Both the position numbers and the translations under genes were made by a program. This document shows, one piece after another, positions 27,701 through 59,274 of a stretch of 64,000 nt of DNA (position 1 is the stretch's first letter; each line of letters begins with the position of its first letter). A model generated the notes under the pieces. It was not told the origin of the DNA. It searched no databases and saw only the letters and a list, made by a program, of their open reading frames with translations. The stretch comes from Halichondria panicea (Eukaryota > Porifera > Demospongiae > Suberitida > Halichondriidae), in contig NC_087377.1 of the NCBI RefSeq assembly GCF_963675165.1, positions 462,501 through 526,500 of the forward strand, written 5' to 3'.

Positions 27701-30700
27701 TAATTTCTAAGAACCAAAATTAGAGGTTAATGATTGTTTTGTGCTTGCCATCTATAGAAAAACCACATAGACCCATCCCCATTATCAGATACTACCACCA
27801 CAAAACCTGGCCCAGACAATACAGGCCTGTTCCTTATAAATTAAGCCTCCCTCAAGGTCAGATTTAGCTGACACAAGCCATGCACAAGCTAAGTTGAAGT
27901 ATTACAGCAGCCAATATCAAGTCTAAGACAAGTTCTATACTTTATGTCAGCCTTATACCTAAAATGTGAATATAGCTTACAATCAGCATGGCCCCAAGTC
28001 AATATTACAATAATTATTCAGTATACTAGTTGTTCTGAATGCAACAGATGAATGGGGAGGGTTGGTGCACCGTTAAAGACTCTTTAACCCATCATTCTCG
28101 ACTCTCAAGGTCGGGCATCTGTTTGCTTTTTCTACCTGTATGCATAGTTTTGTGCTGTTTGCTCTTTTGTTCTCTTTTCCTTTTTTTGTTTTTGCTTTTT
28201 GCTTGCCTAACTATAGATAGGATAATACAAGGTCTCAAAGATCCACCACTAAGTTTACTATACCTAAATATTAGGACATCAGATGCCAACCGATTAATTT
28301 AAGTGAGCATTCCGTTTGAATACCCTCAAACACACACACACACACACACACACACACACTCACACACACTCACACACACCCCCCCCCCCACACACACACA
28401 CACACACACACACACACACACAGGATGTGGTTTTTGCTAACAGTTTACACAGCTTGGTGTAGAATGGAATGTGCGTGGGACTTGGATAGCATATCTATTC
28501 CACATTCTACCACAGGTATTATTGGGGTCTACAAAACACTACCACAACCATTTGTCTTACGAAAACATTGAAGGTATCAATGGAACCGGCATAGCTTGCT
28601 CTATTGGTGTGCAAAATTTGACCATATGAACTCGAATATATGCACTAGCAAACAAGTTTGGCTACGTGCTCTTCTGAAAAGGCTGCAATGTAATTGTACC
28701 ACAAAACCAATTGTCCTACAAAAACAATGAAGGTATCAATGGAACCGGCATGGCTTGCTCTATTGGTGTGCCAAGTTTGAACTTGCTATACCAATATTTG
28801 TGGAAATTAAGTATGGGATTTCTAGTGACACATACCTGGTTCAGGAGTGGAGACTACAGACTTGAGATAGTCAGCAACTTCAGTGTGACCCATCACTACT
28901 GCCCAGTCAAGAGGAGTTTTGCCATCATCATCAGTCACATCTAGACAGGTGAGGGACAGAGATCTTGTAGTAGTACAGACAGCATTGACCATTACCATGC
29001 AGGATGACTACATTATTTTATTATCATGTACCAACAGTGTATTGTATTGCAGTTGCCATGACGATACAACTGCAGGTACACTGATTGTTTCATTACATGC
29101 ACATTGAACCACATTAATATATTCACGGGTTGTCTATCAGAGGATCTAATGAAACAGTACCCACTACGGAAATCACTCACCAACATCACACTTTAGTTCC
29201 TCAACTAGGTATTTCACTAGTTGTATATTTCCTCCCACACAAGCATAGTGCAGTGGTGTTAGGCCCCACCTGTCCCTCACATCTGTGTGTGGTGATACTC
29301 AATATACTCAATAATTAAGTGAGATATGTTATTATAGACTATAGACTCAAAATTGCGGAAAAATAAAACAAGCCTATGCAAATAGAAATAGTTGGTCTTA
29401 TTAATAATTATTGGTATACAAAGTTTGAACGTGATACACGACTGTGTGCGGAAGTTAGGTATGGGATTTCTAGTGACGAGTTTAACTTCAGCCATGTACG
29501 TAAGTGTATAGTGGTCAAGATGGACCAAACATGTCATTGTACCACAACCACTTGTCGTACAGAGAAAGTAAAGGTAGCATAGGAAAGGGCATGCCTTGTT
29601 CTATTGGTGCGCCAAATTTGAGCTTGATACACCACTGTTTGTGGAAATTAGGTATGGGATTTCTAAAGAGCATACAGAAATGCCCGGCTTAATTAAGTAT
29701 CATACAGTGTTAGTCATGCTGGTCCATTATCCCTGGGTATGTTGTTATTAGTGTACACAGTTATAGACATTGTCACTGTCGGATTGGGGGAAATGAGAAG
29801 CCAATGACAATATACGTAGAGTGGTTTGCAGTATTCCATATGAAGCCTACCATTTGACAATATAGAAACAAGCATCTTAAATGGTCAGTAATTACACCAG
29901 CTGGGTGAGATAATTATGTTAGTAGACTCTTTGTCTTAGAGAAGCATGGGAACGAAATACAGAGATATCCGAAGAGCACACTAAATCTCACCAACATCCA
30001 CCTTCAGCTCCTCCACCAGATACTGTACCGTGTCTTTACTTCCTCCATAACAAGCAGAGTGAAGAGGAGTCTCGTTATCATCATCCCTCACATCTGTTGT
30101 GGAACAAAGTTCAACTATCACATACATTTTTAACAGATATTACTATGGCAACCGTATAGCAAATGTTTATGTATTTCAAACAAGTGTACGTACATTGCAA
30201 ATAATTATTCGAAATTGAAATGTAACACTATTAAACTTTCCGCTGTATGCATGGTATGAAAACTTCACATACACAACAACTACTTACCAGTGCTACGACT
30301 ACTACATCGTAAATAATTATTATACTACGCGAAATTACTGACACAATTGATATTGCTACACAGTACATGTATATAATTCAGATACCATAATGATATGGAG
30401 AAACAATTACAATACACAAATAATTATAATGACTACTTACCAGTGCTACACCCAACCTCCTCCTTCAAGTACTGCACCACCTCTTTACGACCTCCCCCGC
30501 ATGCCCAGTGAAGTGGAGTCCTGTTGGTCCTCCCATCACCTTTATCAGTACGAGCTCCATGAGTAACAAGTGTCTTCACAATCTCAAGGTAGCCCTCAAA
30601 GCAAGCACTGTGTAATGGAGGATTCTTATCCGCCCACACGTCACTCCAGTAGAGCTGGTGGTTGGGGTTTGCCCCCTGTCCCAACAGGGACCTAACTTTG

Positions 30701-59274: not shown

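Follow-up and report, generated by a model that had tools for sequence, protein, structure and literature searches.

Judged from sequence, the ankyrin repeats (ANK) encoded by a gene family of the sponge Halichondria panicea have been diversified by natural selection, mainly at the positions presumed to bind targets, with most of the rest conserved. The two units described here, A and B, very probably belong to a tandem family with the plan ANK-(SH3)-GTPase/COR-like-(Ig-like)-Death, in which the concave ANK face has been diversified while most of the framework and the effector has been held. In our best reading, the family would be a repertoire of intracellular receptors that join a hypervariable ANK domain to a GTPase/Death effector, and it resembles a set of recognition proteins encoded in the germline. 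To our knowledge, how sponges tell apart microbes, symbionts and other sponges is largely open, and the finding names residues and exons for resequencing and for ligand screens.

Results

Units A and B both lie on the minus strand and repeat about 28 kb apart in the window, by which we mean the whole stretch of 64,000 nucleotides analysed (C1:462501-526500, where C1 is NC_087377.1 of a 131-Mb genome in 39 contigs; Table 1). The units printed have an exon-1-like start with its donor some 240-290 bp above exon 2, in many of them in a shorter MAEQ form, and exon 1 of L009 departs from the others ahead of the donor. Big arrays of one 40-bp minisatellite lie below both units, at 6625-13540 (about 172 copies) and 38871-40969 (about 52 copies). 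Intron 4 of gene B carries an insert of about 0.9 kb (56507-57393) that is 83% identical to 23986-24902 in the A unit and resembles a dispersed repeat. The 24-bp coding repeat array in the gene B frame (45544-45910; 12 protein letters not shown) varies in length among the relatives printed.

Table 1. Features of units A and B, in window coordinates
Feature	Position	Strand	Remarks
Gene A exon 1	30982..31004	-	Start codon, MATEQDS..., donor GTGAGTG, phase 2
Gene A intron 1	30758..30981	-	224 bp; identical in A and B; nearly invariant in main set
Gene A exon 2	30441..30757	-	Cap-like first repeat, then ANK repeats 2 and 3; Ank_2 E 4e-15
Gene A exon 3	29992..30093	-	One ANK repeat, 102 bp, phase 1-1
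Gene A exon 4	29181..29282	-	One ANK repeat, 102 bp, phase 1-1
Gene A exon 5	28836..28940	-	One ANK repeat, 105 bp, phase 1-1
Gene A linker exon	22918..23082 (ends approximate)	-	98% to P0101 residues 215-269
Gene A GTPase (Roc-like) open frame, type A	21284..22654 (frame, not exon ends)	-	Pfam Roc 21.4 bits, cut-off 27
Gene A COR-like open frame	20048..21142 (frame, not exon ends)	-	Open reading frame and protein comparison
Gene A Ig-like stretch	19675..19932	-	62% to P0101 residues 988-1071 (Ig match of P0101)
Gene A Death-domain-like open frame	18920..19324	-	Death 18.4 bits, below cut-off of 22.6
Gene B exon 1	59252..59274	-	Start codon; end set by donor as in A
Gene B exon 2	58711..59027	-	Holds three repeats
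Gene B exon 3	58262..58363	-	102 bp, phase 1-1
Gene B exon 4	57460..57561	-	102 bp, phase 1-1
Gene B exon 5	56227..56331	-	105 bp, phase 1-1
Gene B SH3-encoding exons	48334..49387 (span approximate)	-	P0001 residues 239-384; two SH3 stretches in P0001
Gene B GTPase/COR-like open frame, type B	44119..46890	-	Holds 24-bp coding repeat array

Exon 2 of A alone matches Ank_2 at 56.5 bits, above the cut-off of 27.3, and four full-length relatives carry ANK matches of 105-201 bits, also above the Pfam cut-off. An alignment-based model of exon 2 has the ANK fold with a pLDDT of 89 (53 with single-sequence folding); it bears on fold and secondary structure only, not on exposure. The 50 structure matches listed for this model are, by title, mostly DARPins or engineered ankyrins.

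The family extends well beyond the window. Exon 2 of A has at least 88 genome matches above 100 bits, itself included (150 scored of 1,279 candidates), of which at least 20, together with one partial match of 53 bits, fall within C1 60 kb-1.02 Mb. The layout beyond the window is drawn from similarity searches in which part of the candidates was scored and from one opened unit. For analysis we took 39 ANK loci (L009-L047); an exon search of the fetched locus L048 found no ANK exon. Among exons covered to at least 85%, all those printed are open and have GT donors, and all have AG acceptors save exon 2 of L041 and L042; exon-2 lengths vary among the printed units by whole codons. The main set comprises 20 copies, namely 19 from the array (L009-L028 minus L027, a near-duplicate of L012) and L046 at 13.3 Mb. 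Units without a given printed exon drop out, and L024_3 and L015_4 were omitted as wrong or diverged exons, leaving 20, 9, 16 and 16 copies for exons 2, 3, 4 and 5. The partial units L029, L031 and L036 were also omitted, and a set of 13 other units excludes L040 and L042 as duplicates of L038 and L041. Another public assembly (proteins P0121, P0153, P0156, P0157 and P0172) holds exact exon-2 copies of some units beside exon-2 proteins that have no close counterpart among the fetched units. This may represent haplotype variation, the database being clustered with members hidden.

Of the 626 bp in ANK exons 2-5, 65 (26, 16, 9 and 14 by exon) differ between A and B, exactly the figure given in an earlier note on this DNA. 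The note had divided them into 58 nonsynonymous and 7 silent changes; Nei-Gojobori counting gives 56.5 and 8.5 (pN 0.118, pS 0.062, ratio 1.9). All nine changes in exon 4, its repeat 5, are indeed nonsynonymous, and we recovered the same 5 differences in the 347 bp of intron 2 and the same 2 in the 415 bp above exon 2. Intron 1 is identical over its 224 bp. The note was silent on intron 3, which has 18 differences in 698 aligned bp and 13 gap columns, and on the exon-5 side of intron 4, with 8 in 172 bp. Its statement that the framework is unchanged went too far, since other codons outside the intact TPLH/AC/G core differ, for example G26R, K98I, L135V, V195I, S201P and V202L (codons counted from the start of exon 2). 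The numbers behind its claim that the exons diverge faster than their introns stand, but the acceleration was overstated: the silent sites of the exons and those of the effector frame both outpace introns 1 and 2, and intron divergence is thus a poor yardstick. These two introns are homogenised or constrained, and the case for selection rests on the balance of nonsynonymous and silent change within the exons rather than on exons against introns.

That balance was examined across the main set, where pN/pS is 1.8, 1.7, 3.1 and 2.1 for exons 2-5 and where, for the same exons in turn, pN lies above the divergence of the flanking 300 bp on both sides in 190/190, 27/36, 106/120 and 105/120 pairs. 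Our test mask consisted of positions 2, 3, 5, 13 and 14 of each repeat, which we take to be the DARPin design positions; it was set before counting and covers 25 of 164 codons (15%) in repeats 2-6. These positions hold 58% of the nonsynonymous differences, a share reached by none of 20,000 permutations (largest 39%), and rotating the mask along the repeat never captured more than 30%. At the mask pN is 0.45 and at position 10 it is 0.50; the remaining codons have a pN of 0.043 and a pS of 0.049. Positions 2, 3 and 5 belong to the beta-turn and 13 and 14 to the inner helix, as does position 10.

Adding position 10 and four first-repeat codons to the mask gives a hypervariable set whose counts are partly post hoc, since both additions were made after the data had been seen. 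Its codons show 181.5 nonsynonymous to 9.5 silent minimal events against a neutral expectation of 3.6:1, which corresponds to an omega of 5.3 at kappa 2 (4.3-6.4 over kappa 1-4, p 2e-8 or less, the counted events not being independent because sequence is exchanged among paralogs). Other codons of the same exons give an omega of 0.9-1.2 (1.0 at kappa 2). Exchange also makes a single tree unjustified, and events were therefore counted in place of fitting site models of the PAML/HyPhy type. When the positions were carried over to exon 2 of the 13 other units, omega was 2.8 (p 0.004) compared with 0.73 at other codons; pN at the variable codons is 0.49 and pS there is raised (0.34 against 0.14), so that the pairwise pN/pS is just 1.4. 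In a sample of 120 exon-2 proteins from other assemblies, of which no fewer than 11 are identical to units of this study, the most variable columns are largely the same. The diversifying selection on the ANK face proposed in the earlier note is thus upheld by the mask test, by the controls from other codons and from the effector frame, and by a weaker replicate in the 13 units; the dN/dS check across paralogs that it suggested gives, by counting rather than by tree models, an omega above 1 at surface codons.

Silent change is not uniform along the exons. In the main set pairwise pS is 0.05 at the remaining codons but reaches 0.12 at the mask and 0.19 at position 10, a rise that is not predicted by pure point mutation with selection and that may come from path counting in multiply changed codons or from greater codon age. 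The transition:transversion ratio falls from 2.05 at other codons and 1.02 in introns to 0.63 at the variable codons; together with the raised pS, the low value could reflect multiply changed codons, radical replacements or greater age. Nonsynonymous single steps are spread over the three codon positions as 59:63:20, where 58:61:23 is expected.

Of the 200-bp stretches that flank exon 2, the one above has a divergence of 0.002 and the one below has a divergence of 0.008. Slowness of this kind is not general, as bins farther from exons 3-5 reach 5-29% and those from 250 bp above exon 2 outward reach 14-26% and more. Compared with the 13 other units, the 200 bp of intron 1 next to exon 2 differ by 1-3% in nine (0.6-23% overall), with exon pS at 8-21%; the 200 bp below exon 2 differ by 3% in two and by 42-53%, unalignable, in the other 11. 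The 224 bp of intron 1, nearly invariant in 20 copies, are bordered by upstream sequence that diverges and by a hypervariable exon. They may contain a regulatory element or may be a hot spot of conversion; Rfam gave no match up to E 1 in window 28700-31700, and intron 1 accordingly holds no known RNA. Distances between 15 units at exons 2, 4 and 5 show Mantel r of -0.06, 0.30 and -0.13 (p 0.63, 0.07 and 0.77). Exon 3 of A differs by 2-3 bases from its counterparts in three other units, and exon 4 of A by 4 bases from the one in L012; for exon 2, the nearest copy is 22 bases away from A and 26 from B. These distances and near-shared exons would fit shuffling, although saturation could also lower the correlation.

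The effector half was compared in the same units. Flanking blocks of A and B are 92-98% identical, whereas their GTPase/COR frames (20048-22654 and 44119-46890) are 33-43% identical in protein, so that the effector half varies too. This gap inside a uniform tandem repeat may stem from effector exchange or from deep divergence. In the C-terminal stretch of the type-B frame, seven array copies give a pS of 0.114 and a pN of 0.033, with pN/pS at 0.14-0.42 in all 21 pairs; this stretch is under purifying selection. The C1 array contains at least eight type-B and at least four type-A modules (51 of 887 and 101 of 293 candidates scored, respectively), and by position 12 of 21 ANK units pair with one or the other. 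Among the matches scored from those candidates, nine of the 21 have neither module in reach. For one of these nine, the unit at 561 kb, where 548.5-557.5 kb was opened, the SH3 exons are present and a GTPase match is absent from that span, similarity to B stopping about 0.4 kb short of the place of the frame. Besides A, 11 of the 13 C1 copies of the type-A GTPase that are at least 90% identical show one TAA inside the matched stretch, which may be an intron.

Pfam Roc matches the A frame at 21.4 bits and P0101 at 17.8 bits, both below the cut-off of 27, and has no match in the B frame, P0001, P0002 or P0006; a P-loop-like GPPSVGKTT is visible. COR-A scores 15.3 bits in P0101 (cut-off 35.3) and has no match in P0001, P0002 or P0006. 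Those three proteins carry a Death domain at 42-44 bits (cut-off 22.6), and the Pfam scan of full-length P0101 found none. Neither NACHT nor NB-ARC is among the Pfam matches of eight window frames (E 0.01) or of four full-length relatives (E 0.1). In annotated H. panicea proteins, an ANK domain of this family is joined to the same effector frame. Twelve annotated proteins were compared, of which eight have exact exon matches and seven of these eight each correspond to a single unit; P0003 and P0009 have in common exons of L012 and L027, which are near-duplicates.

Discussion

There would be no excess selection to explain if the introns had recently been homogenised by gene conversion and the exons were old neutral copies, an outcome that the earlier note had named as fatal to its own proposal. 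The slow introns 1 and 2, lagging behind silent sites, speak for this account, as do the exons 3 and 4 of A that recur nearly unchanged in other units and the uncorrelated distances of exons 2, 4 and 5 across 15 units, and exchange between units does occur. However, neutral old copies should show a pN/pS of 1 or less and no preference for position, and would not give the excess found at binding positions set in advance; homogenisation accounts for the slow introns, not for the nonsynonymous excess. We regard the account as very unlikely on its own, and homogenisation by gene conversion stands as a contributing process rather than a full explanation. A loss of the partner, with the ANK face drifting under relaxed constraint, is hardly credible: codons outside the hypervariable set do lie at an omega of about 1, but relaxation is unable to lift omega above 1, frame and splice sites are kept in the printed exons, and the effector frame too is conserved.

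Targeted hypermutation of the ANK exons, by a process like that of a deaminase or a diversity-generating element and with selection secondary, would suit several features of the data. The variation is very local, with nearly invariant introns flanking exon 2, silent divergence in exon 2 (0.053) exceeds that of those introns, and the variable codons combine raised silent divergence with a low transition:transversion ratio. Against it, mutation alone would bring roughly five times as many synonymous events at the variable codons as are counted, codon positions 1 and 2 show all four bases and no single-base signature, and the pS of exon 2 stays below that of the effector frame (seven copies, a different set). 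The split of single steps over codon positions speaks against a position-specific mutator, but it fails to separate uniform hypermutation from selection. We consider hypermutation quite unlikely, and selection on the ANK face is the reading that we prefer.

In this reading, the units would swap and homogenise DNA, leaving some introns near-identical while the variable exons are re-sorted and kept different. The protein would act inside the cell, where the concave ANK face would sense ligands that may be microbial or non-self. Target binding may then flip the GTPase/COR switch, and the Death domain would recruit partners and pass the signal on. In the available parts of a transcriptome study of H. 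panicea (PMC8242945), receptor expression is individual-specific and GTPases and ankyrin-repeat genes are regulated after LPS; the family described here goes unnamed in those parts.

A further reading treats the 1-Mb array as one combinatorial locus, in which hypervariable ANK exons of matching phase from different units would be spliced to one another and onto shared effector modules. It is suggested by P0001, which mixes three units (exon 2 of L020, exon 4 of L019, and exons 4-5 with the GTPase/COR frame of B) and whose last 63 residues find their best match within the window below gene A, at 98%, as well as by the nine units without a module among the matches scored, including the 561-kb unit without a GTPase match in the span opened. 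An individual sponge would then make more ANK surfaces than it has genes. We hold this to be improbable, the plainer reading being that the mixture in P0001 is an artefact of gene prediction.

Repeat domains behind which a nucleotide switch sits have been described elsewhere, and the sponge family would add another receptor case diversified likewise after those of brown algae and fungi. The brown-algal LRR-ROC-COR genes are treated in PMC11378527, which cites Zambounis et al. 2012. In the portions of that article available, they resemble the sponge family in a ROC-COR-type GTPase behind the repeat domain (the Roc and COR matches here being below cut-off), in single-repeat exons of one length and phase (here exons 3-5, of 102, 102 and 105 bp, phase 1-1), in diversifying selection at concave-face positions, and, as a candidate process here, in exon shuffling, which is proposed there as a source of receptor variety. 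The sponge exon 2 departs from single-repeat exons in holding three repeats. The same portions describe LRR rather than ANK repeats, in algae rather than animals, and alternative splicing of the repeat exons; LRR-ROC-COR is the sole arrangement reported in them, thus without a Death domain, unlike in the sponge family.

Fungal ANK-NLRs, as far as the available text of PMC4986451 goes, are alike in that positively selected ANK positions lie on the concave face with one exception, in inner helices and beta-hairpin loops, and in that exchange between repeats and between family members is inferred. They differ in having a NACHT or NB-ARC core in place of a Roc-like GTPase and highly similar repeats whose number varies within a gene. 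DARPins share the fold and nearly the same variable positions, but are designed libraries rather than genes, and the sponge set adds position 10 and the first repeat. Among the open-licence papers listed by our searches, titles and opening abstract lines hold no apparent account of such a system in a sponge or other animal. The sponge family differs from the algal and fungal genes in its animal host, in the ANK domain on a Roc-like GTPase with a Death domain, and in the contrast of hypervariable exons with very slow introns next to them; the family would be a natural parallel to DARPin libraries, with variation on the positions that engineers chose.
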